Source: Aliiruegeria haliotis (GTDB taxonomy: Bacteria; Pseudomonadota; Alphaproteobacteria; Rhodobacterales; Rhodobacteraceae). Taken from it: DNA of 64,000 nucleotides. Each line of letters starts with the position of its first letter. Position 1 is the first letter of the stretch. Below the pieces are notes generated by a model. It was not told the DNA's origin, made no database searches, and worked only from the letters and a program-made list of their open reading frames with translations. Below, piece after piece: positions 3,151 through 21,744 of the stretch. Location of the stretch: assembly GCF_003003255.1 (NCBI RefSeq), contig NZ_PVTD01000002.1:744001-808000 (forward strand), in the 5' to 3' direction. A program made the translations under genes and the position numbers.

Positions 3151-3477
3151 TCATTCTGGTTCGGGACGATGGCGATGCCCGTCGAAAGTGCCGAGGTGCC
3201 GCAACAGGTCGGTGGCATCGGGCAAAGCACCGGGCATGGTTGCCACTGCATCGGGAAAAATCAGCACGCATGTATCGTCCAGCCCCATGGCATCCTCGAC
3301 CGCCTCCGCTGCTTCGGCAAGAAAAGCATGCGCCAGCCTCCGCCGCGGATCGACACCGCAGATCACCTCGACATCGTCCAGCCGAAGCCCGGGCATTGCC
3401 GCACCGAGATGGGCGAAGACCAGCGGCTGGCTGGCAAAGCTGCCGGAATACACATCTATGCGGCAGACCTCACGCAT
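3151..3477 (-). CDS. small protein, possible tautomerase-like
   Basis: A 108-residue protein squeezed between the SDR (its ATG follows the SDR stop by 3 bases) and the P1 peptidase. No family is certain. Residues 28 onward (MPGLRLDD, then a helix ending 'VEDAMGLDD' and the strand 'TCVLIF') follow the pattern of 4-oxalocrotonate tautomerase/MIF proteins, which begin with a catalytic N-terminal proline. An internal ATG at 3396 would start the protein exactly at that Met-Pro, giving 81 residues; the longer start would bury the proline and make such activity unlikely. Neither start has a strong ribosome-binding site. Operon position suggests a part in the same small-molecule pathway as the SDR and peptidase. 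Confidence 0.55.
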   Translation of the reverse strand: MREVCRIDVYSGSFASQPLVFAHLGAAMPGLRLDDVEVICGVDPRRRLAHAFLAEAAEAVEDAMGLDDTCVLIFPDAVATMPGALPDATDLLRHLGTFDGHRHRPEPE

Positions 3478-5642: not shown

Positions 5643-7112
5643 TCAGCCGTGCAGGCAGGCCACTGTTTTGAGTTCCGAAAACGCATAGAGCGCCTCGAAT
5701 CCCTTCTCCCGGCCATGGCCCGATTTCCCGACCCCGCCGAAGGGAAGCTCCACACCGCCGCCAGCACCGTAGTTGTTCACAAAGACCTGCCCGGCGCGAA
5801 GCTTCCTGGCCATTCGCATCTGCCGTGCCCCGTCGCGTGTCCAGACCGAAGCGACCAGCCCAAGCCCGGTACCGTTTGCGATGGCAACGGCCTCCTGCTC
5901 CGAGCCGAAGGGTAGCAGGATCTGCGCGGGGCCGAAGATCTCCTCCTGCTCTAGCACGTGCCCGGGCTGTGCGCCGGCAATCAGGTGCGGGGCAACGTAG
6001 TGACCGCCCGCGGGCGCGCCGTCGGCGATCTGACCGGTGGCAAGCACCTCCAGATCGGAGCCGAGGCGCAGATAGCCCTCCACGATCTGCTTTTGGCGGG
6101 CGGAAATCAGCGGCCCGACCTCAAGGTCATCCAGTGCCGGACCGACACGCAAGGCGGCATACCGCTCGGCCATTCGGGCCGCGACCTCCGCAAACCGGCT
6201 CTCGTGGACGAGGATGCGCGAAGAGGCGGAACAGGTCTGCCCGGCGTTCTGGATGCCCGCATTGACAAGAAACGGCAGCGCGGCATCGAGATCGACATCC
6301 TCGAACACCACCTGCGGGGACTTGCCACCCAGTTCAAGCGTGACCGGCACGACATTCCCGGCGGCCGCCTTCTGCACCATCTGCCCCACGGGAAGTGAAC
6401 CCGTGAAGGAGACATGGTTGATACCGGGATGGGCCGACAGAGCGGCACCGGCTTCCTCGCCCAGACCGGGCACCACGTTCAGGGCACCCGCGAGCAAGCC
6501 GGCCTCTTCGGCCAGCCGCGCGAAGGCGAGCGCCGTGAGGCACGCCTCCTCCGCCGGCTTCAGCACCGCCGCATTGCCCATGCAGAGCGCCGCGCCAACC
6601 GACCGGCCGATGATCTGCATCGGGTAGTTCCAGGGCACGATATGCGCCGTCACCCCCAGCGGCTCGCGCAGGGTATAGACGGTGTAACCCTCCATGTAGG
6701 GGATCGTCTCCCCCATGATCTTGTCAGCCGCGCCGCCGTAGAATTCCATGTAGCGAGCAAGGGCGATGGCATCGTTGCGGGCCTGTGTCAGCGGCTTTCC
6801 GACATCCTGCGATTCCAGTTTCGCCAGGTCGTCGACCCGTTCGAGCACGAGTTGGCCGATACGCGACAGAATGCGCCCGCGTTCGGCTGCGGTCGTCCTG
6901 CCCCAGGGACCGTCAATCGCGGCGCGTGCGGCTGCCACCGCCTCGTCGACCTCCGCCGTTCCCGCGCGCGCAATCTCACCAATCTCCTGACCGGTGGAGG
7001 GGTCTTCCAACGGCAGCGTCGCAGGCGGCTGGCGCCAGCTGCCGCCAATGAACATTTCCCGGCTGTCGAACCAGCCTGCGGTCGCTTCCCTCATGGGCTT
7101 CCCTTTCATCAT
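5643..7112 (-). CDS. aldehyde dehydrogenase, betaine/aminobutyraldehyde type
   Basis: A complete 489-residue NAD(P)-dependent aldehyde dehydrogenase. The catalytic Glu260 (LELGGKS) and Cys294 (GQTCSASSRI) are present, as is the cofactor motif 'FTGSLPVGQ'. The sequence resembles enzymes that oxidise betaine aldehyde or 4-aminobutyraldehyde, but I cannot fix the substrate. Its first ATG overlaps the stop codon of the upstream ABC ATPase gene (ATGA), so the two are probably translationally coupled; a second ATG at 7094 has a better Shine-Dalgarno (AAGGGAAG) and would shorten the protein by six residues. Being last in a peptide-type importer operon suggests the transporter brings in a compound that yields an aldehyde. 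Confidence 0.88.
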   Translation of the reverse strand: MMKGKPMREATAGWFDSREMFIGGSWRQPPATLPLEDPSTGQEIGEIARAGTAEVDEAVAAARAAIDGPWGRTTAAERGRILSRIGQLVLERVDDLAKLESQDVGKPLTQARNDAIALARYMEFYGGAADKIMGETIPYMEGYTVYTLREPLGVTAHIVPWNYPMQIIGRSVGAALCMGNAAVLKPAEEACLTALAFARLAEEAGLLAGALNVVPGLGEEAGAALSAHPGINHVSFTGSLPVGQMVQKAAAGNVVPVTLELGGKSPQVVFEDVDLDAALPFLVNAGIQNAGQTCSASSRILVHESRFAEVAARMAERYAALRVGPALDDLEVGPLISARQKQIVEGYLRLGSDLEVLATGQIADGAPAGGHYVAPHLIAGAQPGHVLEQEEIFGPAQILLPFGSEQEAVAIANGTGLGLVASVWTRDGARQMRMARKLRAGQVFVNNYGAGGGVELPFGGVGKSGHGREKGFEALYAFSELKTVACLHG

Positions 7113-8677
7113 TCGGCCGCCAGAGGCAGCACTGGCGCTGCCTCCAGCAGCGCACGGGTATATGGATGAGACGGGGCATTGAAGACTGCCTCGGTCTCTC
7201 CCTGTTCCACGATCCTGCCGGCCTTCATCACCAGCACACGGTCAGTGATCGCACGCACAACCGTGAGATCGTGCGAGATGAAGAGGTATGTCAGACCGTG
7301 CCGGTGTTGCAGCTCCGCCAGAAGGTCGAGTATCTGCGCCCGGATCGAAACATCGAGGGCGGAGACCGCCTCGTCCAGAACGATCAGTTCAGGCCGGGTG
7401 ATCAGCGCGCGCGCGATCGCGATGCGTTGGCGCTGGCCGCCGGAGAACTCGTGCGGAAACCGGTCGGCATCGGCGGACGACAGCCCCACCTGCTCCAGCA
7501 CCTCGCCGATCCGTGCATCGAGATCCGCGGGCCGGCCCAGAAGGTGGAACGGTTCGGACAGCAGGCGGCTGACCTTGTGGCGGGGATTGAACGAGCCGTA
7601 GGGGTCCTGGAACACCACCTGCATGCGGCGGCGCAGATCGGCGGGCATATCGGGTGTGACGGTCTGGCCGTCGAGCCTGATCTCTCCGCCTTGCAATGGC
7701 TCTAGCCCGAGGATCGCGCGTGTCAGCGTAGACTTCCCGCAACCGGATTCGCCAACCAGCCCCAGGCTTTCACCTCGACGGATCCGAAGGTCGACCCCAT
7801 CGACGGCCCGAAAACTCGGGCGCGGACCGAACAGGCGCTGTCGGCGGAGGGTGTAGTCGCGCACCGCGCCGGACACTTCGAGCAAATGCGCCTCGTCCAT
7901 CTGGGGAATGCGGACCGGGCAGTGCCGGGATGCCTCAAAAAGCGCCTTCGTGTAGGGATGCTGCATGTCGTGCAGCAACGCGTCGGTCGCACCCCGCTCC
8001 ACCACCTGACCGGCCTTCATCACCGCCACGTCGTCCGCCATCTCCGCCACCACGGCCAGATCGTGGGTGATGAACAGGCATCCCATCCCCTCCTCCCGCA
8101 CCAGTTCGCGGATCAAGCCGAGAATCTGGGCCTGGGTCGTCACGTCCAGCGCGGTCGTCGGTTCGTCCGCGATCAGCAACTTCGGGCGCAGGGCGATGGC
8201 CAGCGCAATGCAGACCCGCTGGCGCTGCCCTCCCGACAGCTCATGCGGATAACGGTCGAGCGGGAAGCGGTCCGACGTGAGGCCGACACGGGCGAGCCGT
8301 TCCCGGGCAATCCTCGCGGCTTCGGACCGGCTGGCCGCCCCGTGGATCAACAACGTCTCCGCCACCTGGTCGCCGATGCTCTGCACAGGGTTCAGCGCGG
8401 TCATCGGCTCCTGGAAGATCATCCCGACTTCCGCGCCACGCACCGCGCACATCTGCCGCTCTCCAAGGGCCGTCAGCTCGCGCTCCTCCAGCGTCACCTT
8501 GCCTGACAGCTCCGCGCCTTGCGGCAGCAGGCGCATGATCGACAGCGCGGTCATCGACTTCCCCGACCCGCTCTCGCCGACGATCCCGAGCGTCTTGCCG
8601 GCCTGCAGCCGCAGGGAGACATCGCGCAGGATCGGCTTGCCGCCGATGGAAAGGTTGATCTGGTCGAGCGTGATCAC
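7109..8677 (-). CDS. peptide/nickel-type ABC transporter ATPase, DppD-DppF fusion
   Basis: A 522-residue protein with two complete ABC ATPase domains in one chain. The first has Walker A GESGSGKS, signature LSGGQRQR and Walker B with DEPTTALD; the second has [16 protein letters not shown] and LDEAVSALD. Such fusions replace the separate DppD and DppF subunits that power peptide, opine or glutathione importers at the inner membrane. The C-terminal extension after each domain matches oligopeptide-type ATPases. The true start is a GTG that overlaps the dppC stop (GTGA), with GGAGGG eight bases upstream; the open frame continues upstream but only as a shadow of dppC. Confidence 0.93.
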
Positions 8678-9495
8678 TTCATCGCCCTCCGCAGCCGTGG
8701 ATCCAGCAGATCCCGCAGGCCGTCCCCCATGAGGTTCAACCCCAGGACCGTCATCACGATGCACAGGCCCGGTAGGATCGCCAGCCGCGGATAGGCGTAG
8801 AAGAAGGTCTGCGCATCGGCCAGCATCCGTCCCCACGACGGCGTCGGCGGCTGTGCACCGAGGCCGACATAAGACAATCCCGCCTCCGCCAGGATGCCCA
8901 TGGAGAACTGGATCGTGCCCTGCACCACCAGCAGGTTGGCGATATTCGGCAGGATGTGCTCGGCGGAGATCAGCGCCCGCCCCTTGCCGGCCACCCGCGC
9001 AGCCATGATGAACTCCCGCGGCCAGATCGTCAGCGCCGCCCCCCGGGATACACGGGCAAAGACGGGGATGTTGAAGATCCCGATGGCAATGATCGCGTTG
9101 AGGGCGGACGGGCCGAACACGGCGGTGATCAGGATGGCGATGACGAGCGACGGAAAGGCAAAGACAAGGTCATTGCCGCGCATGATGATCTCGTCCAGCA
9201 GCCCGCCACGATTGGCTGCTGCCGAAAGCCCGAGCGGCACGCCGAGGACGATGCCAATGCCGACAGCCACCAGGGCCACCGCGATGGAGGTTCGCGCCCC
9301 AGCCATGAGCATCGACAGCATGTCGCGCCCGAGGTGATCGGTCCCAAGCAGGTAGCCATCACCGGAGGGCGACAGCTTGGCGGCGATGTTGAGGTCGGTG
9401 ACGTCATGGGGCGTCCAGCCGAGTGACACAATGGCCGCCACGAGAAAGACGCCGAAGAGGATCGCACCCGCGACGAGTTGAACCGGCCACTTCAT
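8674..9495 (-). CDS. peptide/nickel-type ABC transporter permease, DppC-like
   Basis: A 273-residue inner-membrane permease with an N-terminal membrane segment, a periplasmic stretch ('YLLGTDHLGRDMLSMLMAGA') typical of DppC/OppC subunits, and five more hydrophobic segments. The cytoplasmic EAA loop that contacts the ATPase lies around residues 175-200 ('AARVAGKGRALISAEHILPN'). It pairs with DppB to form the channel. Start and stop codons overlap both neighbours by four bases. Confidence 0.93.
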   Translation of the reverse strand: MKWPVQLVAGAILFGVFLVAAIVSLGWTPHDVTDLNIAAKLSPSGDGYLLGTDHLGRDMLSMLMAGARTSIAVALVAVGIGIVLGVPLGLSAAANRGGLLDEIIMRGNDLVFAFPSLVIAILITAVFGPSALNAIIAIGIFNIPVFARVSRGAALTIWPREFIMAARVAGKGRALISAEHILPNIANLLVVQGTIQFSMGILAEAGLSYVGLGAQPPTPSWGRMLADAQTFFYAYPRLAILPGLCIVMTVLGLNLMGDGLRDLLDPRLRRAMK

Positions 9496-10439
9496 CTACC
9501 GTGCCTCAGGCGTGGGTCGACGAGCGCATAGGCAAGATCGACGAGGAAGGTCACGAGGATCACGGCAAAGACCAGTAGCATCACGACGGATTCCACCACG
9601 ATCAGGTCACGCTGGGTGATCCCCTGGAAGATCAGCAACCCGAGTCCCGGCAGGAAGAAGACCTTCTCGATGATGATCGCCCCGGCCAGAAGAAAAGAGA
9701 ATTGCATGCCGATGATCGTCAGCACCGGGATCATCGCATTGCGCATCCCGTGCCGCCGGATCGCCTGCCCCTCGGTCAGGCCCTTGGCGCGAGCGGTACG
9801 GATGTAATCCTGGTTCAGAGTTTCGATCAAAGCCGATCGCATGACCCGTGCAAGGATCGATGCTTGCGGCAGCGCCAGCGCCACCGCGGGCAGGGTCAGC
9901 GCCCGGAGCGCCGGGCCGATGCCTCCGTCCCACCCGGGGAAGCCGCCGGACGGGAAGATCGGCCAGGTGATGGCGAGGAGCACCACGAGCAGCATCGCAA
10001 ACCAGAAGTTCGGCACCGCGATCCCGAGTTGCGTGGCCCCCATGATCCCGTAATCCGTAGGCCGTCCCCGGCGCGCGGCCGCCAGCATCCCCACCGGCAA
10101 TGCGATCACAGTGGAGAGCGCGAGCGCGTAGAGTGCCAGCGGCAATGACACCCAGAGCCGCGCCGCCACCAGTTCTGAGACGGGCACGCGATAGGTGTAT
10201 GAGGTCCCGAAATCCCCAGTGAGCATGCCTCCGACCCAAGCGACGTAACGTTCCAGAAGGCCTCCGGACAAACCAAGGTCGTCTCGCAGGGCGGCCACCG
10301 TGTCTTCGGAGGCATTGAGCCCCAGCATGAACGAAGCGGGATCGCCCGGAATGACCTCAACCACCGCAAAGATCACAAGGCTTGCCGCCAGCAGCGACAA
10401 TGCCAGAGAGATCAACCGGGTGGCGGCATAGTGGATCAT
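9492..10439 (-). CDS. peptide/nickel-type ABC transporter permease, DppB-like
   Basis: A 315-residue inner-membrane permease. It begins with the DppB-type first membrane segment ('RLISLALSLLAASLVIF') followed by 'VIPGDPASFMLG', and has the conserved 'DYIRTARAKGL' segment of the EAA loop at about residues 205-215. The open frame extends 71 codons upstream, but the ATG at 10439 is where family similarity begins. It is the first gene of the operon dppB-dppC-dppDF-aldehyde dehydrogenase. No solute-binding protein gene accompanies it in the window. Confidence 0.92.
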   Translation of the reverse strand: MIHYAATRLISLALSLLAASLVIFAVVEVIPGDPASFMLGLNASEDTVAALRDDLGLSGGLLERYVAWVGGMLTGDFGTSYTYRVPVSELVAARLWVSLPLALYALALSTVIALPVGMLAAARRGRPTDYGIMGATQLGIAVPNFWFAMLLVVLLAITWPIFPSGGFPGWDGGIGPALRALTLPAVALALPQASILARVMRSALIETLNQDYIRTARAKGLTEGQAIRRHGMRNAMIPVLTIIGMQFSFLLAGAIIIEKVFFLPGLGLLIFQGITQRDLIVVESVVMLLVFAVILVTFLVDLAYALVDPRLRHGR

Positions 10440-10777
10440 GGGGCGGACGTTAGTGCCCCCCACGGCGCGATGCCAGAGGGAAGCGTCGCGGGATGCCATC
10501 CGGGATGGCATTCCGGGATCGCCTTCACCTCGCAAGCAGGTCCGCGGCATACCCGAGGACAGGTGGGATATGGGAAACCGGATGTCCCGAAGGACGCGGT
10601 GAGGCATTGGACGGGGTACTCGGCAATTCTCCAGAACTTGCCGCTGCATCAAAGATATCCGGCAGGCAGTGCGCGGAAGGCGCGGCGCTTTGCCGGTCCC
10701 GCGGGTGTGGCCGGGATCCCGCCAGCCCGTATGGACGGGGCCCGCCGCAGGATCGCGGCGAGCCGATTGAACGCGAC
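10440..10777. other. intergenic region between potD and dppB
   Basis: 338 bases with no convincing gene. It holds the 3' end of the potD transcript and the promoter of the dpp operon. The only clear structure is the palindrome at 10493-10511, described separately. Confidence 0.6.
10493..10511. promoter_or_regulatory. perfect 8-3-8 palindrome upstream of dppB
   Basis: ATGCCATCCGGGATGGCAT: arms ATGCCATC and GATGGCAT are exact inverted repeats with a CGG centre. It lies 54-72 bases upstream of the dppB start, the distance expected of an operator, possibly for a GntR- or LacI-type regulator. There is no T-run, so a terminator for potD is less likely. Confidence 0.5.
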
Positions 10778-11815
10778 CTACTTCTTCAGGTTGGTCCAGA
10801 TCTGGTCATACACCGCCTGGGTCTGCTCGTCGCAGACTGCGATAAAGGCACCGGGGCCGGCATCGGCCGGCGGGTTCGCTTCCGGCAGGGTCGCCAGTTC
10901 CGGGTCGAGGAATTCTTCCACGCCCTTCACCCCGGCGCCGTAACGGGCATAGTTGGAGACTGCGGCGATATTCTCCGGTTCCAGAAGGAAATCCATGAAC
11001 TTCAACGCGTTCTCCCGGTTCGGCGCATCCTTCAGCAGCACGACATTGTCCATCCAGACCACATATCCCTGCTTGGGGAAGGCGTATTCGAGCGAGGCAC
11101 GTTCGGCGCGGGCCTTGGCACCGAACCCGTCATAGATCTGGCCCACGGCGGCATCGCCCGAGACCAGCACTTCCTTGGCGGTGTCCGAGTTGAAGGACGC
11201 CCAGTGCGCCTTTGCCTCCGTCAACATCGCGTTCAGCGCCTTGAGCTTGTCGCGATCCTGGCTGCATTGCTCGATCCCCATGTGGATCGCGGCCATGGCA
11301 AGAACCTCGCCCTGGCTGTCCAGCATGTTGATCTTGCCAGACAGCTCGGCTGGCGGGTTGAACAGGATGTCCGTGGTGCTGATGTCGCCATCGTAGACCT
11401 CGCGGTCGACCATGAACGAGGTCGAGCCCCACTGGTAGGGGATCGAGTGCTTCCGGCCCGGATCGAAGGCCGGATCTGCCCAGTCGGCGGTGACGTTGCC
11501 GATATTGGCCAGTTCGCCGTCGCCGATCTCGTCGAGGATGCCCTCGTTTGCCATGATCTCGACCATGTAGTCGCCCGGCACCGCAACGTCATAGGTCCCC
11601 AGGCCGCCGGCCTTCAGGCTGGCCAGCATCGCCTCGTTGGAATCGTAGGTGTCCATTGTCACCTCGATGCCGGTCTCGGCGCTGAACTTGTCGAGAAGCT
11701 CCTGCGGCATGTATTCGAACCAGTGATAGATCACGAGCTTGCCCTCGGCGCTCGCGCCCTGCGCGGCGACCGAAAGGGCGAGAGCGGCTGCGCTTGCCTT
11801 CAGAAGTGTCTTCAT
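10778..11815 (-). CDS. potD: spermidine/putrescine-type ABC transporter binding protein
   Basis: A 345-residue periplasmic binding protein with a Sec signal peptide cleaved after 'QGASA' near residue 23. The mature start 'EGKLVIYHWFEYMPQELL' is typical of PotD/PotF polyamine receptors, followed by 'FSAETGIEVTMDTYDSNE'. The family binds linear polyamines; the ligand here is not certain, and related proteins take up other cationic amines. The ATG at 11815 has a GGGGAA site just upstream; the frame is open further upstream only as a shadow of potC. It is the last gene of a potABCD operon, 19 bases after potC. Confidence 0.9.
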   Translation of the reverse strand: MKTLLKASAAALALSVAAQGASAEGKLVIYHWFEYMPQELLDKFSAETGIEVTMDTYDSNEAMLASLKAGGLGTYDVAVPGDYMVEIMANEGILDEIGDGELANIGNVTADWADPAFDPGRKHSIPYQWGSTSFMVDREVYDGDISTTDILFNPPAELSGKINMLDSQGEVLAMAAIHMGIEQCSQDRDKLKALNAMLTEAKAHWASFNSDTAKEVLVSGDAAVGQIYDGFGAKARAERASLEYAFPKQGYVVWMDNVVLLKDAPNRENALKFMDFLLEPENIAAVSNYARYGAGVKGVEEFLDPELATLPEANPPADAGPGAFIAVCDEQTQAVYDQIWTNLKK

Positions 11816-11834
11816 TGCATTTCCCCTTGCTGGA

Positions 11835-12641
11835 CTATTGTGTGTTGTCTTTCTTCGAAACGAAGTAGCTGATCGTGACCATGACGACGGACACACCAAG
11901 CAACATGGTCGAGATCGCCATGATATTCGGCTTGATCCCCTGTTTGACCGATCCGAAGATCGCCGTCGGCAGGGTCTCCACCCCGGCGCCCTTCACGAAA
12001 TTGGTGATGATGAAGTCATCGAGCGAGATAATGAAGGCGAGCAGGAACCCGGAAATGATGCCCGGCCCCATGAGCGGTAGCAATACATATCGGAACGCCT
12101 GCACCTTGGTGGCATAGAGGTCCTGAGCCGCCTGTTCGTAGGTGCCCTCGATCCCCTGCATCCGGGCCGCGATCGGGAGATATGCGAAGGGAATGCAGAA
12201 AGCGATATGTGCCGCCAGGATCGTGGTGTAGCCGCGCGTGAACCCGATTGCGTTGAAGAAGATCAGCGTGGCAACAGCGGTCACGATCTCAGGCACCATG
12301 AGCGGCAGCGATATCAGCCCGAAGGAGAGGGTCCGCCCCCTGAACCTGCCCCCGCGCACCATGGCCGTCGCGGCGCAGGTCGCGATCACCGTCGCCGTAG
12401 TCGCCGCCATGATCGCGATGGAGAAGGAGTTGACGGCCGCGGTCTTGAATTTCTCGCTGTCAGGGCCGGTGAAGACATCGGCATACCAGCGCAGCGACAC
12501 GCCCTCCCAGACCGTGATCGAGGCCGAGGCGTTGAAGGAATAGACAGTGACGACAATCAGCGGCGCATAGAGAATCACAAGGCAGAGAATGGTGATGCCG
12601 ACGAAGCCGGGATAGTTGCGGACATCGGTGTTCGACGCCAT
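11835..12641 (-). CDS. potC: polyamine-type ABC transporter permease, PotC-like
   Basis: A 268-residue inner-membrane permease with six hydrophobic segments. The EAA loop '[20 protein letters not shown]' (about residues 165-185) and the following '[14 protein letters not shown]' are hallmarks of PotC/PotI. The ATG overlaps the potB stop by one base (TGATG), with an AGGAGG-like site inside potB (GGAAAGGAGGC). It pairs with PotB. Confidence 0.93.
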
Positions 12642-13570
12642 CAGCCTGCCTCCTTTCCGGACTTCGCCTGCTGGCGCGCAAAGACCATCAGGATGACCAG
12701 CACCATGCTCAGAAGGATCATCGCGGCGGCCGCACCGAACGGCCAGTTGCCCGCACTGCCCTTGAACTGCTCCTCGATCAACGAGCCGATCATGAAGTTC
12801 TTCGCCCCCCCCAGCAGGTCCGGCGCGAGGAAGGAGCCCAGAGACGGGACGAAGACGAGGATACAGCCCGCAATCACGCCGGGTTTGACCGTTGGCAGAA
12901 GCACGCGACGGAGCGTGGTCCATTTGCTGGCATACAGGTCGGCCGCCGCTTCGGAGAGGGTGAAGTTGTAGCGCTCCACCGATGCGTAGACCGGCAATAC
13001 CATGAACGGCAGGTAGGAATAGAACAGCCCCAGCTGCACGGCGAAGTTGGTGTTGATGATGTGAATGGGTTCGGAGACCACGCCAACCGACATCAGGAAC
13101 TCGTTCAGCGGCCCGTTGTCGCGAAGCAGGAACTTCATCGAGACGGTCCGGATCAGCAGGTTGACCCAGTAGGGAATGGTGATCAGGAAGACCCAGATCG
13201 GGCGCACCTTTTCCGGTCGCGTGGCAATGAAGTAGGCCGTCGGGAACCCGATCAGAAGCGACATCACCGTCGCCAGCCCCGCCTGCCAGATCGAGCGCCA
13301 GAAGATGTTGATATAGGTCCACTCGATCTTCGGCGCCTCGTCCCCGAACAGCCCGCGGTCGAAGAAGAACTGGTCATAGGCGGCGAGGCTGAACTCCCAG
13401 ATAACGCCACCGCGGAATTCCTTGGTCAGGAAGGAATAGACGAGCATCATGCCGACGGGCGCCAGCACGAAGAACCCCAGAACCGCCCAGGCCGGAAGCA
13501 GCAGCCAGGTCCGCGCCTCGGCGTATGTGTCGGTGGTGACGCTGGCGCCTGTTGCTGCTCCGCCCGCCAT
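12641..13570 (-). CDS. potB: polyamine-type ABC transporter permease, PotB-like
   Basis: A 309-residue inner-membrane permease of the PotB/PotH type: N-terminal membrane segment, a long periplasmic stretch, then '[11 protein letters not shown]' and '[11 protein letters not shown]', which are characteristic, and an EAA loop '[19 protein letters not shown]'. The start overlaps the potA stop in TGATG. It forms the channel with PotC and is energised by PotA. Confidence 0.93.
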
Positions 13571-14658
13571 CAGTCCACCAACAGGCGCGCCGCGCCCCTG
13601 TCCCCGTTGACGAAGACCGGGCTGCCCTCGGGAAAGACCCTGGCGTTGCCACGGTCGGAGTTTGCCGCCCGGATGGTGAAATTCGGCCCGTCGTCCAGAT
13701 CGACGATGGTCATGATGTTGGTGCCGACAAAGACATTCTCCAGCACCGTCGCATGCAATGCGTCCGGGTCGATCTTCTCATCGGTCAGGAACAGCCGTTC
13801 GGGCCGGACCGAAAGGTGGACCTTGGACCCGACGCCGATCCCCTCGACCGCATCGACCTTCATCTCGTGTCCGCCACCGAGGTGACAGACCGCCCGCCCT
13901 TCGGCGAAGGCATCGACCGACACTTCCAGCAGGTTCGTTTCGCCGATGAAATCGGCCACGAACATGTTGCGGGGGTATTCGTAGATCTCCCCCGGAGTCC
14001 CCAGTTGCTGCAACTCGCCGGCTGACATGACAGCAATGCGATCCGACATGGTCAGCGCCTCTTCCTGGTCATGTGTGACGAAAATGAAGGTAATTCCGGT
14101 CTCGCGTTGAATATGCTTCAGCTCGATCTGCATTGCCTTGCGCAGCTTCAGATCCAGCGCCGAAAGCGGCTCGTCCAGCAGAAGCACCTTGGGTTGCGGG
14201 GCGAGGGCACGTGCAAGGGCCACCCGTTGCTGCTGCCCGCCCGAAAGCTGGTTGGGCTTGCGGTTTGCAAACTGGGACAGCTGAACCAACTCCAACATCT
14301 CGCCAGCCCGCGCCCTGGCCTCGCGCCCCTTGCCGAGCATCTCCAGCGGGAACATGACGTTTTCGAGGACGGTCATGTGAGGAAAGAGCGCGTAGTTCTG
14401 GAAAACCGTGTTCACCGGGCGCCGGTTCGGCGGCAGGTCCTCGATTTCCTTGCCATACAGGAAGATCCCGCCTTCGGTGACGTCCTCGAAACCGGCAATC
14501 ATGCGGAGCAAGGTTGTCTTGCCGCAGCCCGAAGGCCCCAACAGGGTGAAGAACTCGTTGTCGTGGATCGACAGCGAAATCCGCTTGAGTGCAGTGAAGT
14601 CGCCATAGCGTTTCACCGCATCGCGAACATCGATCGCGATCTGTCTTGCCTCGGCCAC
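13570..14658 (-). CDS. potA: polyamine-type ABC transporter ATPase
   Basis: A 362-residue importer ATPase: Walker [10 protein letters not shown], signature LSGGQQQR, Walker [13 protein letters not shown] and a C-terminal TOBE domain that senses or regulates. This is the PotA/PotG type. The true start is a GTG at 14658 with AGGGAGA six bases upstream; the open frame extends 52 codons further but into non-conserved sequence. It is the first gene of potABCD and diverges from the flavin monooxygenase. Confidence 0.92.
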
Positions 14659-14741
14659 GCACGTCTCCCTGGCAGATCGGTTTTGGGCAATGGTTAGCGC
14701 TGACGCCGGAAATTGCGGAGTAATCTGTTCCGCAGGGCACA

Positions 14742-14756
14742 TTAGGTATTTCCTAA
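14742..14756. promoter_or_regulatory. palindrome TTAGG-N5-CCTAA, copy 1
   Basis: TTAGGTATTTCCTAA, a perfect inverted repeat with a 5-base centre, lying about 84 bases upstream of the potA GTG. The TTA..TAA ends and spacing fit a LysR-type recognition site. A second, longer copy lies 197 bases away. Confidence 0.6.
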
Positions 14757-14936
14757 GCGCGGCCGAACTCGAGGGCAAGTCAGGCGCGTGCCACCACGCA
14801 CAACCGCCCTGCACAGGCTCTCAGCACATAAGCCGGAATTTCGTGCGGAATGCAAAAAGCCTTCACGCAGGATGCTCCGATGCGTGTGCTTGTGGAACTC
14901 TGGCGCAAACTCTCGCGCTGGCGCCGCCCGCCTGCT

Positions 14937-14955
14937 GATTAGGGCCAGCCTAATC
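14937..14955. promoter_or_regulatory. palindrome GATTAGG-N5-CCTAATC, copy 2
   Basis: GATTAGGGCCAGCCTAATC, a perfect 7-base inverted repeat around a 5-base centre, containing the same TTAGG/CCTAA core as copy 1. It lies 139 bases upstream of the flavin monooxygenase start. A half-conserved third copy precedes the aminotransferase gene. Confidence 0.65.
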
Positions 14956-15093
14956 TTCGCTGTCGCAGGTTGTACTTTTTCGGCGCGACGGTGCTGTGAC
15001 TTTTGAGGGGACGACATCGCGCAGTCATCTCCAGAACGGGTCAACCTGCATCCTGCGCGATCGACACGGCCGGACAGCCGGGAAAGGCGCGAC

Positions 15094-16362
15094 ATGCAGA
15101 CAGAGACGACAGATACGCTGGTTGTCGGCGGCGGTCAGGCCGGGATCGCCATGAGCGAGCATCTCGGCAAGGCCGGTGTGCCGCACCTGGTGCTGGAGCG
15201 GAACCGTATTGCCGAACGTTGGCGGTCGCAGCGGTGGGATTCCCTCGTGGCCAATGGCCCCGCCTGGCACGACCGTTTTCCCGGCCTCGAGTTCAAGGGA
15301 ATGAGCCCGGACGCCTTTGCCCCGAAGGAGGACGTGGCCGACTATCTTGCTGCCTATGCCGAAAAGATCGGCGCGCCGATCCGCTCGGGCGTGGATGTGA
15401 GGTCCGTGCGCCGACTTGAAGGCAGCGCTGGGTTTCGCATTGAAACATCGCAGGGGGTGATCGAGGCAGTGCGTGTGGTTGCAGCCACCGGCCCCTTCCA
15501 GAAACCCGTCATCCCGCAGATCGTGCCGCCGACGCCGGGCATCACGCAGATCCATTCCGCCGACTACCGCAACCCGGGTGCGCTGCCGCCAGGCGGGGTG
15601 CTGGTTGTCGGCGCCGGGTCGTCCGGTGTCCAGATCGCGGAGGAACTGATGCAGGCGGGCCGCAAGGTCTTCCTTTCCGTCGGGCCGCACGACCGTCCGC
15701 CGCGGCGCTACCGCGGGCGGGATTTCGTCTGGTGGCTCGGTGTGCTGGGTCTCTGGGATGCCGAGGCGCCAGGCAACGAGCATGTCACGATATCGGTCAG
15801 CGGAGCACATGGCGGCAAGACCGTCGATTTCCGCAAGCTGGCCCATCAGGGCATGACGCTGGTGGGGCGCACTGAGCGCCATGCCGAGGGCGCGTTGCAT
15901 TTTGCACTGGACCTGGCGGAGAACCTGGCCCGGGGCGATCTGAATTACCTCTCGGTTCTGGACGCCGCCGATGAATATGTCCGGCGCAACGGGCTTGACT
16001 TGCCCGAGGAACCGGAAGCGCGCACCACCCTGCCCGAGCCCGATTGCGTGACCACGCCGCTCCGGTCTCTCGATCTCTCGTCGGCCGGGATTTCCACCAT
16101 TATCTGGGCGACCGGGTTTGCACAGGACTACGGCTGGTTGCAGGTCGATGCCTTCGATGCCGATGGAAAGCCGGCCCACCAGAGGGGGGTGTCAAACGAG
16201 CCGGGGGTCTATTTCCTCGGCCTGCCATGGCAGTCCCGCCGGGGGTCCTCCTTCATCTGGGGGGTGTGGCACGACGCGAAATTCATCGCCGATCAGATCG
16301 CGATCCAGAGGAGCTATGCGGCCTACGTGCCCAGCCCGGAACGCGAAACCGAAAACGCTTGA
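15094..16362 (+). CDS. FAD-dependent monooxygenase (flavin-containing, CzcO-like)
   Basis: A 422-residue flavoprotein with two dinucleotide-binding motifs: GGGQAG near residue 11 for FAD and GAGSSG around residue 173 for NADPH, plus the C-terminal 'IIWATGF' that closes the FAD site. This arrangement is that of class B flavin monooxygenases, which insert oxygen at N or S atoms or do Baeyer-Villiger oxidations. The long form resembles proteins annotated CzcO or indole-pyruvate monooxygenase-like. A GGGAAAGG site precedes the ATG. It begins a run of genes (RidA, DUF1028) and diverges from potABCD, so I infer it oxidises an imported amine or a product of one. Confidence 0.88.
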   Translation: MQTETTDTLVVGGGQAGIAMSEHLGKAGVPHLVLERNRIAERWRSQRWDSLVANGPAWHDRFPGLEFKGMSPDAFAPKEDVADYLAAYAEKIGAPIRSGVDVRSVRRLEGSAGFRIETSQGVIEAVRVVAATGPFQKPVIPQIVPPTPGITQIHSADYRNPGALPPGGVLVVGAGSSGVQIAEELMQAGRKVFLSVGPHDRPPRRYRGRDFVWWLGVLGLWDAEAPGNEHVTISVSGAHGGKTVDFRKLAHQGMTLVGRTERHAEGALHFALDLAENLARGDLNYLSVLDAADEYVRRNGLDLPEEPEARTTLPEPDCVTTPLRSLDLSSAGISTIIWATGFAQDYGWLQVDAFDADGKPAHQRGVSNEPGVYFLGLPWQSRRGSSFIWGVWHDAKFIADQIAIQRSYAAYVPSPERETENA

Positions 16363-16436
16363 AGCCACAACGCGCCAGCCGCTTTCCGGAACATGATGCC
16401 GGGGCGTTTGCCGCGACAAGGAAATTGGAGCACCGA

Positions 16437-16853
16437 ATGGCCCATACCCGTATCCGGAAATTCAACACTGCGCAGACATACCCGGAACAGGCCCTCGACA
16501 ACGATCTCTGCCAGGCCGTTGTCACGCGGGGCGGCAGAACGGTCTGGCTGCGTGGGCAGTGCCCGCAGGATCTCGATGATGCCCGGAACATCGACAGTCA
16601 CGACCCGGTGGAGCAAACGCACAAGGTCATGCAGAATATCCGGCAGTTGATCGAGGAAGCCGGCGGGTCGATGGAACACCTGGTGAAGGTCGTTGTCTAC
16701 ATCACCGATATTCGGCACCGGGAGGCCGTCTACCGGACGATGGGCGAATACATCCAAGGCGTGCACCCTGTTTCCACCGGGCTCGTCGTCTCCGCTCTGG
16801 CGCGCCCCGAATGGCTGGTTGAAATCGACGGCACCGCCGTCATACCGGATTGA
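16437..16853 (+). CDS. RidA/YjgF family protein
   Basis: A 138-residue member of the RidA superfamily, which hydrolyses reactive enamine/imine intermediates released by PLP enzymes or amine oxidation. The C-terminal 'ALARPEWLVEIDGTAV' holds the conserved Arg that binds the substrate carboxylate in active members. The ATG has GGAG seven bases upstream; the frame is open through the end of the monooxygenase gene but only as a shadow. Its place between a monooxygenase and DUF1028 suggests a specialised deaminase for this pathway rather than the general housekeeping RidA. Confidence 0.88.
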   Translation: MAHTRIRKFNTAQTYPEQALDNDLCQAVVTRGGRTVWLRGQCPQDLDDARNIDSHDPVEQTHKVMQNIRQLIEEAGGSMEHLVKVVVYITDIRHREAVYRTMGEYIQGVHPVSTGLVVSALARPEWLVEIDGTAVIPD

Positions 16854-16857
16854 GCTG

Positions 16858-17532
16858 ATGACCTTCTCCCTTGTCGCCCGCTGCGCCGAAACGGGCATGT
16901 TCGGCATCGCCATCTCGTCCTCCTCCCCCGCCGTTGCCGCGCGGTGCTCCTACGCCCGTGCCGGAGTCGGCGCCGTTGCCTCGCAGAACGTGACCGACCC
17001 GACGCTCGGTCCACTCACACTCGACCTGATGGAACAGGGGGCGTCAGCGACGGAAGCCATCGCGGCCATCGTCGCACAGGGCCGGTTCATCGAGTACCGG
17101 CAGGTTCTGGCGGTGGACGGCACCGGTGATACAGCAATCCACTCGGGGCCGAATTCGCTCGGCATCTGGACGCAGGCGCAGGCTGACAACGTGGCCTCCG
17201 GCGGCAACTTGCTGGCCAACGAGGGAGTGCCACAGGCCATCGTGGACGGGTTCCTCGCTGCCTCAGGCCATCTTGGAGATCGCCTGATCGCGGCGATGCG
17301 GTCCGGACTGGCGGCGGGTGGAGAGGCCGGGCCGGTGCATTCGGCGGGCCTGAAGATCGTCGATATGGTTGCGTGGCCTGTGGCCGACCTGCGCTGCGAC
17401 TGGACGGAGGACTGCCCGATCGAGGCCGTGGCCAAAACCTGGGACGTCTACAAACCGCAACTGGACGCCTATGTTCAGCGCGCGCTCGACCCGCGCGCGG
17501 CACCTTCGTACGGCGTACCGGGCGACGAATAG
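16858..17532 (+). CDS. DUF1028 family protein (Ntn-hydrolase-like)
   Basis: A 224-residue protein of the DUF1028 family. The start 'MTFSLVARCAETGMFGIAI' and the segment 'VASGGNLLANEGVPQAIVDGF' (about 118-138) are family signatures. DUF1028 proteins adopt an Ntn-hydrolase-like fold; Thr2 is in the place of an N-terminal nucleophile, but the reaction is not established. The gene starts 4 bases after the RidA stop, so the two are co-transcribed. RidA-DUF1028 pairs suggest a shared substrate, probably an amide or imine. Confidence 0.87.
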   Translation: MTFSLVARCAETGMFGIAISSSSPAVAARCSYARAGVGAVASQNVTDPTLGPLTLDLMEQGASATEAIAAIVAQGRFIEYRQVLAVDGTGDTAIHSGPNSLGIWTQAQADNVASGGNLLANEGVPQAIVDGFLAASGHLGDRLIAAMRSGLAAGGEAGPVHSAGLKIVDMVAWPVADLRCDWTEDCPIEAVAKTWDVYKPQLDAYVQRALDPRAAPSYGVPGDE

Positions 17533-17548
17533 CGCGACGGAGACGTCC

Positions 17549-18106
17549 ATGCCGGACCTTTCTCGCGCCCAGAGGCACGCCGGGGCCGCGGCGATGCGGC
17601 CGGGCGTTCCGCTCCCCCCGACCTCGAGTATGGGCGCCATCATGGACGGACAGCAGACCGAGCGAAGCATTCGATTTGCTGACGAAGGCCAGAAATCCGC
17701 CAATCGGGTCGCGAGCGGCAAACAAGTGACCGTCGAGGGCAAGGGGCTTTTTGTGCAGCCGACGAACTTTGACGACGTAGGCCATGATAGTCCGCTGATA
17801 GGAGACGAGGTTTTCGGCCCCGATTGCGCCACTACGCCCATCGACACCGAGGCAGGTTTGATCGTGATGACCAACGACTCGATATTTGGCACTAGCTGTT
17901 TTGCCCGGACCTGCAACCTGAGCCGCGCGCTTCGAACCGCCGAGCCGCTGGATGCGGGTAGCTGCCACCTCGCCACGGTGGATGCTCTCCTGACACGGAC
18001 GCCGTTTGGCGGGTTGACCCGATCCGGCTTCGGGCGTGAACCGTCGATGCACTGTTCCGACAGGCCCGCCGCACTGAAGACCATCTCGGTTCAGTATCGC
18101 TCTTGA
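17549..18106 (+). pseudogene. aldehyde dehydrogenase, degraded C-terminal remnant
   Basis: An open frame of 185 codons that aligns by eye with the C-terminal third of an aldehyde dehydrogenase: 'MGAIMDGQQTERS' (usual MGPLI..), 'FVQPTNFDDV', 'DEVFGPD', 'MTNDSIFGTSCFARTCNLSRA', and 'TPFGGLTRSGFGRE'. The N-terminal two thirds, with the cofactor site and the catalytic Glu and Cys, are gone, and several normally fixed positions are changed (EEIFGPV to DEVFGPD; VNxx to HLAT). It cannot be an active dehydrogenase. The frame is still open, so the decay may be recent or the fragment may be expressed. It follows DUF1028 by 16 bases and once may have oxidised the aldehyde formed in this pathway. Confidence 0.75.
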
Positions 18107-18138
18107 AGCCCCGGAACCGCATAGGCTACTTCGGCACC

Positions 18139-19080
18139 ATGCCATTGCGGTTTACCCTTCGCCAACTGGAATACTTCGTCGCCGTTGGCGAGGCGGGGTC
18201 GATCTCGCTTGCCTCCGACAAGGTCAATGTCTCCTCCCCCTCCATCTCCGCGGCTATCAGCCAACTCGAAGAGGAGTTCGGCATTCCGTTGTTCGTGCGA
18301 AAACACGCCCATGGGCTGTCGCTCAGCCAGGCCGGGCGCCAATTCATGGTTCAGGCCAAGAAGGTGCTGGAGGAAGCGAACTCGCTCAACCATCTGGCCG
18401 GGGACGTGATGGGCAAGGTGCAGGGGCCGTTGTCAGTTGGATGCCTGTTGACCTTTGCGCAGCTACTGGTGCCCCGGTTGCGCCGGTCCTTCCAGGACCG
18501 ATTTCCGGGTGTTGCCGTCAGCCAGCACGAGCTCACGCAGGCACAGATATTCGACTGGCTGCGCCGCGCCGAGATCGACATTGCCCTGTCCTATGACCTT
18601 GAGGTCCCGGCGGAGCTGGAATTCGTGCCGCTTGCCGAACTGCCGCCCTATGTGCTCGTAGGGGAGGACCATCCGCTTGCCGAACGGTCCGAGGTTTCCA
18701 TCCCCGAACTGGTCGACCACCAGATGATCCTGCTGGATCTGCCCTATTCCTCGGGCTATTTCCTGTCACTTTTCACCGAACTGGGGGTCAAGGCCCGGAT
18801 CGCGGAGCGTACGCGCGACATGGCCGTGATGCGATCGCTGGTCGGCAATGGGTTTGGATATTCCATCGCCAACATCCGTGCCATTTCGGAGCGTTCGCCC
18901 GACGGGCGCGTCCTGCGTTCCATTCCGCTGTCCGGAGACGTGCGGCCAATGAAACTTGGCCTGCTCATGACGCAGGGCGCCCGTTCGATCCTGAATATCT
19001 CGGCCTTTGTGGAGCATTGCCGGGAGATCGTCGACGTCAACAGCTTCCCGGGGTTGCAAGCGCCGAAGGGGCGCCCTTAG
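18139..19080 (+). CDS. LysR-type transcriptional regulator
   Basis: A 313-residue LysR regulator. The winged helix-turn-helix fills residues 1-60 ('FTLRQLEYFVAVGEAGSIS', 'SSPSISAAISQLEEEFGIPL'), followed by the linker helix and a periplasmic-binding-like effector domain from about residue 90. An in-frame TTG at 18103 is possible, but the ATG at 18139 matches the family start. Standing inside the amine locus, it is the best candidate to bind the TTAGG-N5-CCTAA palindromes upstream of potA, the monooxygenase and, in weaker form, the aminotransferase. The inducer is unknown. Confidence 0.92.
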   Translation: MPLRFTLRQLEYFVAVGEAGSISLASDKVNVSSPSISAAISQLEEEFGIPLFVRKHAHGLSLSQAGRQFMVQAKKVLEEANSLNHLAGDVMGKVQGPLSVGCLLTFAQLLVPRLRRSFQDRFPGVAVSQHELTQAQIFDWLRRAEIDIALSYDLEVPAELEFVPLAELPPYVLVGEDHPLAERSEVSIPELVDHQMILLDLPYSSGYFLSLFTELGVKARIAERTRDMAVMRSLVGNGFGYSIANIRAISERSPDGRVLRSIPLSGDVRPMKLGLLMTQGARSILNISAFVEHCREIVDVNSFPGLQAPKGRP

Positions 19081-19095
19081 CGTCGCGACCGCGAG

Positions 19096-19112
19096 TTAAC
19101 CGCAGCCTAATC
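19096..19112. promoter_or_regulatory. imperfect third copy of the TTA..CCTAATC palindrome
   Basis: TTAACCGCAGCCTAATC: the right arm CCTAATC is identical to copy 2 and the left arm keeps only TTA at the correct spacing. It lies 77 bases upstream of the aminotransferase ATG, in the 108-base gap after the LysR gene. Confidence 0.4.
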
Positions 19113-19188
19113 CGTGCTTTCGACCGTGATGCTTTAACCTGCCCTACGGATCCGGGAAACTTGCCCGAAACCCAAACAGGGAAACGCC

Positions 19189-20559
19189 ATGACCAAGATG
19201 CCCTCGACGGACGAGATCCTGACCAAGGATGCTCACCTGATCCAGTCTTTCGCCAACCTTGACGCCCTCAAACAGGCCGACGCGCGCACGGCCATTGTCG
19301 GGGCAGACGGTGTCCATGTCATCGATAGCGAAGGCAATCGCCTGCTCGACGGTATCGGGGGGTTGTGGTGCGTAAATGTCGGCCACAAGCGTCGGGAGAT
19401 TATCGACGCCATCACGGAGCAACTGGAAACGCTCGATTACTATTCCACCTTCTACAACTTCACCCACCCCAAGGCCGCCGCCCTCGCCGCCAAGGTGGCG
19501 TCGCTTGCCCCGGGCAATCTCAACCGCGTGCATTTCGGCAACTCCGGTTCTGTTGCCAACGATTCCGCCGTGCGTATGCTGCACCACTATTTCAACCGTC
19601 TCGGCAAGCCGAAGAAGAAGAAGGTCCTGTCACGTCACGGTGCCTACCACGGCTCGACCCACCTCGCGATGGCGATGACGACGCCGGCCTATTCCGATGG
19701 CTGGGACACCGCCGCCGATGGGCTGGTGCATCACCTGATGGAGCCTTGCCACTACCACAGGACCGATCCGGAGATGACCGAAGCCGAGTTCCTCGACGTG
19801 CTGATCGAGGATGCGCGCAAGGCGATACACGACATCGGACCGGAGAACATCGCCTGTTTCATTGCAGAACCGATCCAGGGAGCCGGCGGCGTGCTGGTGG
19901 CACCGGATGGCTATAACAAGGCGATGCGGGAGCTGACGGCCGAGAACGAGATCAAGTACATCGCCGATGAAGTGGTGACCGCCTTTGGCCGGCTGGGGGC
20001 GATGTTCGCCAGCCAGGACGTGTTTGGCATGACCCCCGATATCATCACGACGGCAAAAGGCCTGACATCAGGCTACCAGCCCCTGTCGGCGACCATCATC
20101 GACGACGAGATCTACGAAGTGATCTCCGAGCCCGGCGCGATGTTCCTTCACGGCATGACCTATTCGGGGCACCCGGCCGCCGCCGCAGCCGCGTTGGCCA
20201 ATATCGAGATCATGGAGCGCGAGGATATCCCGGGCCGGGTAAAAACAACCGGCAAGCAGTTCGAAACCGGCCTGAAGGGCCTTATCGATCTGGACATCGT
20301 CGGAGACGTTCGGGGCAGCCACTTCATGATCGGGCTTGAGTTCGTGCGGGACAAGGCAACCCGTACACCGTTCGAGGCCGACGCCAATGTCGGGATGGCG
20401 GTCGCGCAGCATTGCCAGAAACGCGGTCTTGTTGCGCGTGCACTTGGAAACAGCCTGATCCTGTCGCCGACGTTGGTGATGACGCCGGAACAGATCGACG
20501 TCGTTGTCGGGACTGTCGGCGAGAGCATCCGGGCGACGATGGCCGACCTTGGCCGGTGA
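19189..20559 (+). CDS. class III omega-aminotransferase, polyamine/putrescine type
   Basis: A 456-residue PLP enzyme of fold type I, subgroup III. The PLP lysine is Lys290 (TTAKGLTSGYQP), with Asp260 (ADEVVTAFGR) contacting the pyridine nitrogen and the phosphate-binding 'NSGSVANDSAV' at 118-128. The early 'GIGGLWCVNVGH' block and 'FYNFTHPKAAALA' resemble SpuC-type putrescine and omega-amino acid:pyruvate aminotransferases. Such enzymes convert a terminal amine to an aldehyde. With a polyamine-type importer close by, an amine substrate is likely; taurine, beta-alanine or another omega-amine cannot be ruled out. The next gene, a deacylase, follows by 18 bases. Confidence 0.88.
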   Translation: MTKMPSTDEILTKDAHLIQSFANLDALKQADARTAIVGADGVHVIDSEGNRLLDGIGGLWCVNVGHKRREIIDAITEQLETLDYYSTFYNFTHPKAAALAAKVASLAPGNLNRVHFGNSGSVANDSAVRMLHHYFNRLGKPKKKKVLSRHGAYHGSTHLAMAMTTPAYSDGWDTAADGLVHHLMEPCHYHRTDPEMTEAEFLDVLIEDARKAIHDIGPENIACFIAEPIQGAGGVLVAPDGYNKAMRELTAENEIKYIADEVVTAFGRLGAMFASQDVFGMTPDIITTAKGLTSGYQPLSATIIDDEIYEVISEPGAMFLHGMTYSGHPAAAAAALANIEIMEREDIPGRVKTTGKQFETGLKGLIDLDIVGDVRGSHFMIGLEFVRDKATRTPFEADANVGMAVAQHCQKRGLVARALGNSLILSPTLVMTPEQIDVVVGTVGESIRATMADLGR

Positions 20560-20577: not shown

Positions 20578-21744
20578 ATGAGCCGAACGCTTGAGATTCT
20601 CGATCGGTTGATCGCCTTTCCGACTGTCAGCGCCGACAGCAACCTGTCGTTGATCGACTACGTGCAGGAGTTGCTGCAAGGTTGTGGCTTCCAAACGCAC
20701 CGAATGAACGACGAGTCCGGCACCAAGGCCGGGCTCTTCGCGTCCATTGGACCAGCAGGTGCAGGCGGCGTGATGCTCTCTGCCCATTCCGATGTCGTGC
20801 CGGTCGATGGGCAGCGCTGGCGCCGCGACCCGTTTCGGTTGACCCGGGACGGCTCGCGCCTCCATGGCCGCGGCGCGACCGACATGAAGGGGTTTCTCGC
20901 CTCGGCGCTCGCCCTTGCGGAACGTGTCCGTGCGGAGAGGCTCCGGGAGCCCCTCAAGTTTTCGATTTCCTGGGACGAGGAAGTCGGCTGCAAAGGCCTG
21001 CCGCAGATGCTGCCATTTCTTGACGGGACCATCGGTGCCCCGAGACTGTGTATCGTCGGCGAACCGACTTCGTTAAAGGTCGGCATCGGCCACAAGGGCA
21101 AGGCGGTGTTCCGCGCCAAATGCCATGGACAGGCCGGGCATTCGGCAATGGCCCCCGATCATGTGAACGCGCTGCATCTCGCCGCGGAGTTCATTCAGGG
21201 CATACGGGGGCTACAGGCCGACCTTGCCGTGAACGGTGCCCGGGATCCGGGGTACGAAATCCCCTACACAACGGTGCATGTGGGGAGGATAAGCGGAGGA
21301 ACGGCTCTGAACATCGTCCCTGAGCTTGCCATTCTTGACCTTGAGTACCGCAATATCGCCGGGGATCCTCCCGAGACAATTGCGGACGCGATCGGGGACA
21401 TCGCACGCGTCGCGGCGGCAAGCGTAGCGGCGGGACAGCCCGGGATCGGGATAGAAGTGGAGAAAGTCGGCGGATACCCGGGGCTGGACGTGCCGGAGCA
21501 TTCGCCCGCGATCGCCGAGGTCGCCCGCTGCGCCCGCGCGACCGGGACCCTGAAGGTCGGCTACGGAACGGAGGCCGGGTATTTTGCCGGCCTTGGCATT
21601 CCCACACTTGTCTGCGGACCGGGATCGATGGCGCAGGGGCATGTCGCCGACGAATACATCGAACGTGCGCAGATCGATGCATGCGACAGATTCATGGAAA
21701 GGCTTCACGAGCGGCTCCGAAAGGGCGTGCATGAAGTGGGATAA
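20578..21744 (+). CDS. M20 family deacylase, acetylornithine deacetylase-like
   Basis: A 388-residue zinc metallohydrolase. Zinc ligands and base are visible: His70 and Asp72 (AHSDVVPVDG), Asp102 (RGATDMKGF), Glu134/Glu135 (DEEVGCKG), and a C-terminal 'CGPGSMAQGHVADEY' where the His binds zinc. The sequence is closest in feel to ArgE acetylornithine deacetylases, which remove acetyl groups from ornithine. Here, far from arginine genes and co-directional with an omega-aminotransferase, it more likely releases an acyl group from a pathway intermediate such as an N-acylated amine. Start ATG follows AGGACCCGGAGCAGGC. Confidence 0.85.
   Translation: MSRTLEILDRLIAFPTVSADSNLSLIDYVQELLQGCGFQTHRMNDESGTKAGLFASIGPAGAGGVMLSAHSDVVPVDGQRWRRDPFRLTRDGSRLHGRGATDMKGFLASALALAERVRAERLREPLKFSISWDEEVGCKGLPQMLPFLDGTIGAPRLCIVGEPTSLKVGIGHKGKAVFRAKCHGQAGHSAMAPDHVNALHLAAEFIQGIRGLQADLAVNGARDPGYEIPYTTVHVGRISGGTALNIVPELAILDLEYRNIAGDPPETIADAIGDIARVAAASVAAGQPGIGIEVEKVGGYPGLDVPEHSPAIAEVARCARATGTLKVGYGTEAGYFAGLGIPTLVCGPGSMAQGHVADEYIERAQIDACDRFMERLHERLRKGVHEVG

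Follow-up and report, generated by a model that had tools for sequence, protein, structure and literature searches.

Histamine breakdown in Pseudomonas aeruginosa is reported to be tied to HinK, a LysR-type regulator that senses imidazole-4-acetate (PMC8231116, PMC6467879). HinK is described to bind the hinD and hinF promoters (PMC8231116) and T-N11-A boxes in other promoters (PMC10912698). The pathway comprises an FAD monooxygenase (hinF), an enamine deaminase (hinL) and two hydrolases (hinH, hinG), which convert imidazole acetate to aspartate (PMC8231116, PMC6467879). Here we analyze a related locus in a 64,000-nucleotide stretch of Aliiruegeria haliotis (NCBI RefSeq assembly GCF_003003255.1, contig NZ_PVTD01000002.1, positions 744,001 to 808,000 of the forward strand; hereafter referred to as the window), in which three copies of a palindromic element precede the genes of a putative amine uptake and breakdown system. 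The general kind of system, an operator paired with a LysR regulator, is well known. We propose that the HinK-like LysR protein encoded in this locus governs a regulon for histamine uptake and breakdown, with the palindromes forming the recognition part of an operator-promoter, and we put the probability of this reading at about 0.78.

The regulator gene (18139-19080, plus strand) encodes a protein with Pfam HTH_1 and LysR_substrate domains. Its best matches among 61 matched PDB sequences (E 1.3e-50, residues 4-297) are 6m5f and then 3fzv, both of which we take to be HinK. It is linked to hin-type genes, all on the plus strand. Upstream of it are located genes for a HinF-like flavin monooxygenase (FMO; 15094-16362; proposed to be an imidazoleacetate monooxygenase, with TIGR04046 below cut-off), a HinL-like Rid family protein (16437-16853; PF01042) and a HinH-like DUF1028 protein (16858-17532; PF06267). 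Downstream we find a class III aminotransferase gene with a proposed HinC-like role (19189-20559; PF00202) and a gene for a HinG-like, ArgE-like amidohydrolase (20578-21744; TIGR01892 above cut-off). Across 398 genomes from the phylum, 31 matches to the FMO have identities of 61-73%. FMO-Rid-DUF1028-ArgE corresponds to hinFLHG by gene order and by published annotation, and not by comparison with the hin sequences (PMC8231116, PMC6467879). The same order is also present in distant genomes, some of them Pseudomonas-like, and in several of these it lies beside a HinK-like LysR gene. The aeruginosa system (PMC8231116) and this one share a LysR gene tied to the pathway and a block coding for an FMO, a Rid protein and two hydrolases, whereas the importer there is the HinA permease and here a Pot-type ABC system, the HinC aminotransferase is often replaced by histamine dehydrogenase in the loci of relatives analyzed below, and lysR lies inside its own target operon.

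A preliminary description of the window had reported two perfect palindromes of one core, 197 bases apart, between potA and the FMO gene, a third site before the aminotransferase gene that keeps CCTAATC exactly and TTA at the same spacing, and a LysR gene within the locus. It had suggested a single regulator for uptake and breakdown of one amine, and had called for tests of site conservation, a position-weight-matrix search and a search of the whole genome. By sequence search we located the exact TTAGG-N5-CCTAA palindrome TTAGGTATTTCCTAA at 14742-14756 and TTAGGGCCAGCCTAA, likewise an exact palindrome, at 14939-14953 inside GATTAGGGCCAGCCTAATC (14937-14955); both lie between potA on the minus and the FMO gene on the plus strand, with a start-to-start spacing of 197 bases. 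The third, imperfect site, TTAACCGCAGCCTAA, can be read directly at 19096-19110; it is followed by TC and retains TTA and CCTAATC. These sites and the position of the LysR gene agree with the earlier account. Both exact sites contain the T-N11-A dyad (TAGG-N5-CCTA) typical of LysR-type operators. The sites end 84 bp before potA (for the start used here), 141 bp before the FMO ATG and 79 bp before the aminotransferase ATG; the last of them directly follows the LysR stop, and 79 bp is the usual distance for histamine dehydrogenase in relatives. Palindromes with up to two mismatches show no excess over shuffles in the window (5 observed versus 5.85 expected). The third site thus cannot be claimed from its palindrome alone, and conservation is needed to decide.

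A scan with the LysR protein yielded 175 loci encoding a relative, and we analyzed the best 80 (mainly Rhodobacterales, 1.46 Mb in total). Exact TTAGG-N5-CCTAA occurs in 41 copies in 32 of the 80 loci, with no copy for spacers of 0-4 and 6-10 and one for a spacer of 11. To avoid choosing a motif in advance, we paired each of the 256 tetramers with its reverse complement at spacings of 0-20 and counted the resulting dyads in 64 dereplicated loci. TTAG-N7-CTAA tops these 5,376 dyads, with 91 copies observed and 1.67 expected. Across the 80 loci this core is found 123 times, in 67 loci, and other spacers between 0 and 15 give 0-3 copies, except for spacer 1 with 17. None of the 123 copies is located inside a mapped gene; for 115 of them the distance to a mapped gene start is at most 400 bp, mostly 75-140 bp, and 8 lie beyond. 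The site-gene pairs involve FMO (47), histamine dehydrogenase (37), PotA (32), Rid (20), Rieske oxygenase (9), LysR (3), aminotransferase (1) and ArgE (1). The sites are conserved, and they precede the same genes across genera. A congener (L035) carries sites ahead of its potA, FMO and histamine dehydrogenase genes; the last of these sites, at 12180 (TTAA...CCTAA), ends 83 bp before the histamine dehydrogenase gene but lies ~1.25 kb after lysR. The presence of an operator before potA, before FMO-Rid-DUF1028 and before the gene after LysR across genera supports the suggestion that one regulator would control uptake and breakdown of a single amine.

In the general model of LysR-type regulators, a recognition site is located near -65 and an activation site near -35. 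We aligned 96 dereplicated site-gene rows, located 60-145 bp from the start and oriented toward the gene, and found conservation to extend past the palindrome to G21, T23, G27, A29, a CTTT at 37-40 and weakly to A/T at 62 and 66. The downstream element reads GCT-N3-GCA, followed by CTTT, and the histamine dehydrogenase and PotA subsets contain TAT-like -10 stretches near 61-66. The full predicted element is ~40 bp long, with TTAG-N7-CTAA as its core. Taking 37-42 as -35 and 61-66 as -10 places the transcription start near 73 and the palindrome centre near -65, which would fit a LysR recognition site. T23 is found one N7 step past CTAA, as would be expected for the third half-site of a LysR tetramer. 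The T-N11-A palindrome and the second element downstream of it would resemble the general model, as would the distances at which the CTTT and the -10-like positions follow; our case differs in that transcription starts are placed by spacing only. A sigma-70 consensus scan of 14600-19250 revealed no promoter.

In the window, the candidate operator toward potA (14728-14756, minus strand) consists of the palindrome at 14742-14756 and conserved downstream T/G/A at 14734, 14730 and 14728. The one toward the FMO gene (14939-14978, plus strand) combines the palindrome at 14939-14953 with GCTGTCGCA (14959-14967) and CTTT (14975-14978), and the one toward the aminotransferase gene (19096-19135, plus strand) combines the imperfect palindrome with GCTTTCG (19116-19122) and CTTT (19132-19135). 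We scanned both window strands with a composite matrix covering positions 0-42, built from 94 training rows with the two Tropicimonas loci left out. The sites at 14939 (+), 19096 (+) and 14756 (-) take the first three places, in this order, among 127,916 positions, and each is oriented toward its own gene. When the palindrome is left out of the matrix, 14939 still ranks 1st, 19096 ranks 17th and the potA site 1,917th of 127,950. For the third site, support thus comes from its downstream part, and a like site in the congener also speaks for it. The potA site, whose downstream part alone ranks low, depends on its palindrome. In a leave-one-locus-out test at a score threshold of 15, the matrix matched the upstream regions of FMO in 62/69, histamine dehydrogenase in 46/49, PotA in 24/39, RieskeA in 12/27 and Rid in 21/70 cases, and those of DUF1028 (0/69), LysR (0/77) and ArgE (0/57) in none. 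The background, for the full matrix with upstream regions masked, is 5 matches in 2,500,294 positions. As no LysR upstream region was matched, lysR appears to lack a separate promoter element and to be expressed as part of its target operon.

The motif is rare in the organism's own genome (5,044,743 bases), where the exact palindrome occurs three times, twice in the window and once on another contig, and the reversed control is absent. The lone outside copy (contig C11 of genome G000, 3394-3408, locus L003) has a composite score of 10.9 (window sites: 40.7, 23.1 and 18.9), and by eye the surrounding stretch contains no recognizable target genes. In 198 genomes of the family, a set that includes this genome and overlaps the named LysR loci, there are 70 exact sites and 54 LysR hits; 21 of the sites are no farther than 10 kb from such a hit, where a uniform rate predicts 0.08. 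Of the 49 sites far from a LysR hit, 19 are found in LysR-bearing genomes and 30 in genomes without a LysR hit at E 1e-60. We examined six of these 19 sites, from 6 of the 14 genomes concerned; for two of the six, a neighbouring FMO gene was already known when they were chosen. In four of the six cases an unlinked FMO copy starts 85-105 bp after the site, as would be expected for a regulator acting in trans. The other far sites may in part be due to chance.

The gene that follows LysR bears on the identity of the amine. Within 400 bp after LysR, 51 of the 80 loci have a mapped histamine dehydrogenase homologue, 16 have ArgE and 1 has an aminotransferase; another or no mapped gene is found in 10, and the contig ends in 2. 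In two relatives the histamine dehydrogenase-like gene matches the Rhizobium sp. enzyme (PDB 6de6) nearly over its full length, with 1248 and 1211 bits. We checked 56 homologues whose alignment starts by residue 20 and reaches residue 400; in 52 of them, all nine residues that PMC10180351 places in or close to the active site of the Rhizobium enzyme are kept. The window's own genome differs in this respect, as it contains no close histamine dehydrogenase (best match 29%) and an aminotransferase occupies the slot; a genome of the same genus (G007) has one at 79%. Together with the hin-type gene order, the homologues in relatives make histamine the most likely amine. Homarine or another methylated amine was considered as substrate, as suggested by Rieske oxygenases in relatives and by a gene first taken for a trimethylamine dehydrogenase relative; the match to histamine dehydrogenase pointed away from it.

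From the sites, their conservation, spacing and orientation and from the gene content, we infer how the system would operate. An intermediate of histamine breakdown, by analogy with HinK probably imidazole-4-acetate, would act as the inducer. The LysR protein would bind TTAG-N7-CTAA as its T-N11-A box, centred ~65 bp upstream of the transcription start, and may touch GCT-N3-GCA as a second element between this box and a weak -35 (CTTT). It would activate three transcripts, with probable limits as follows: potABCD for uptake; FMO-Rid-DUF1028 through lysR for ring oxidation and ring opening, the regulator itself included; and aminotransferase-argE for the first step and the last hydrolysis.

We find the operator in Rhodobacterales as well as in one other alphaproteobacterial family. 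In that family (f10, same class, probably Rhizobiaceae), whose LysR proteins are 53-56% identical, the core precedes histamine dehydrogenase in 6/6 loci and FMO in 5/6. We compared this to 12 distant loci, with LysR proteins 33-39% identical where present. The core is found in two of them (L219 and L232), a composite match of at least 15 in L219 alone, and no dyad is common to 34 upstream stretches from these loci. In the Pseudomonas-like genome of L219, an exact TTAGGTTTTTCCTAA (10957-10971; composite score 23.0) lies between a 33%-identical HinK-like LysR gene and a divergent ABC transporter gene, oriented toward the latter ~110 bp away; it may be an old shared site or due to chance. In a LysR tree of 53 rows, a part of the full set, which carried a warning of long branches, the core is present in the locus sequence analyzed for 32 of 41 alphaproteobacterial-clade rows versus 2 of 12 outside, the loci being of unequal length. 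The motif label requires 11 changes on this tree and thus does not mark one clean clade; several rows without the core have near-core sites.

Several observations weigh against our proposal. The core is missing from 13 of the 80 loci, 8 of which have near-core composite matches of at least 19 and one a weak match (L071, 11.7); L061, L078, L085 and L093 have neither core nor composite match. L227, with a 53%-identical LysR and a histamine dehydrogenase, lacks the site (best score 10.4). The LysR proteins of the Pseudomonas-like clusters are only 33-39% identical to this one and only 1 of 12 distant loci has a composite match, so the operator of HinK itself may be a different one. As the window has no histamine dehydrogenase, histamine is argued from relatives, and the aminotransferase shows similarity to putrescine and polyamine aminotransferases too. 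Finally, a Salipiger abyssi plasmid (L237) carries Rid-DUF1028-ALDH-LysR-aminotransferase-ArgE, where ALDH denotes aldehyde dehydrogenase, with a 59%-identical LysR and a 68%-identical aminotransferase and no matrix hit, and a LuxR-type gene (7071-7895) lies divergent to the aminotransferase there. L238 and L239 contain helix-turn-helix genes at the equivalent position. In two other plasmids the aminotransferase gene has no annotated hin-type neighbours within 8 kb. The window aminotransferase may have been acquired from such a setting and then placed behind the LysR operator.

The sites could instead serve another, unlinked transcription factor, the LysR protein having a different target. The 30 far sites in genomes without a LysR hit would fit such a factor, as would a strong composite operator (L127, 1501-1515; score 33.0) in genome G013, which has no close LysR (best 26%) or FMO match; this site lies near a gene that looks IS66-like by eye and is perhaps a relic of a lost cluster. 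An unlinked factor would not readily account for the enrichment of exact sites near LysR genes, the T-N11-A shape and its placement near -65, the concentration of the core in the alphaproteobacterial LysR clade, with the unequal locus lengths noted above, or the composite site next to the HinK-like LysR gene in L219, and we regard this explanation as quite improbable. That the palindromes are chance occurrences or RNA hairpins (terminators) without any regulator could be argued from the lack of excess in the two-mismatch scan and from a terminator-like stem at 14981-14996, although the 2 such stems in the region do not exceed the shuffle mean of 3.7. Genome-wide rarity and conserved spacing, place, orientation and downstream extension speak against it, and conservation has already refuted this idea, to which we give practically no weight.

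It is also conceivable that operator and LysR act as proposed on another amine, such as agmatine, diaminopropane or putrescine. The importer is of the Pot type, the aminotransferase matches putrescine and polyamine aminotransferases, and for the Rhizobium histamine dehydrogenase, PMC10180351 gives oxidation rates with agmatine and 1,3-diaminopropane that are 10% and 13% of that with histamine. Set against this are the histamine dehydrogenase under the same operator in relatives and the hinFLHG order of FMO-Rid-DUF1028-ArgE, a set that converts imidazole acetate to aspartate (PMC8231116). A substrate other than histamine is thus unlikely in our view. The histamine regulon remains our preferred reading. 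To our knowledge, polyamine breakdown requires no such ring-opening set.

The importer genes on the minus strand (10778-14658) are potA (13570-14658; TIGR01187 above cut-off), potB (12641-13570), potC (11835-12722; its family scan used the longer frame 11835-13322) and a gene for a solute-binding protein (10778-11899), with matches to the BPD_transp_1 and SBP families. Between the DUF1028 and LysR genes, an aldehyde dehydrogenase remnant (17549-18106, plus strand) comprises the C-terminal third only (Aldedh profile positions 293-453 of 461). Many relatives have a full-length gene in the equivalent slot (e.g. Leisingera, L055:8531-9967), and the congener L035 has a short piece too. Downstream of potABCD and on the same strand lies a stretch (5643-10652) coding for an ABC transporter of the dipeptide type as well as for an intact aldehyde dehydrogenase. 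The latter (5643-7112) might serve as HinD, the usual slot holding a fragment only. Near a hin-like cluster of Pararhodobacter (L102) we find close relatives of OppDF (65%) and of this aldehyde dehydrogenase (74%), and the genes in 5643-10652 may thus belong to the regulon. Rieske oxygenases related to glycine betaine/carnitine monooxygenases are present in the cluster of 30 of the 80 relatives (e.g. L035, 7228-8391; L062, 6446-7591 and 8817-9929), and none was found in the window.

Our literature search returned no paper carrying the motif strings or DUF1028, and among the histamine/LysR matches listed none concerns Rhodobacterales. We see an even chance that roseobacters and related bacteria possess a histamine regulon in which a LysR protein, encoded within its own target operon, drives a dedicated Pot-type histamine importer and the hin ring-opening enzymes, in which an exchange of the first enzyme (dehydrogenase for aminotransferase) took place under a kept operator, and whose site is largely not common to the HinK-like clusters of distant Proteobacteria. 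The operator element is specific enough for finding further targets (5 background matches per 2.5 million positions), and a polyamine-type importer becomes connected to a new likely substrate. An unnamed amine locus would thus become a testable regulon for the uptake and breakdown of histamine, a compound relevant to seafood spoilage and as a bacterial signal, in marine Alphaproteobacteria.

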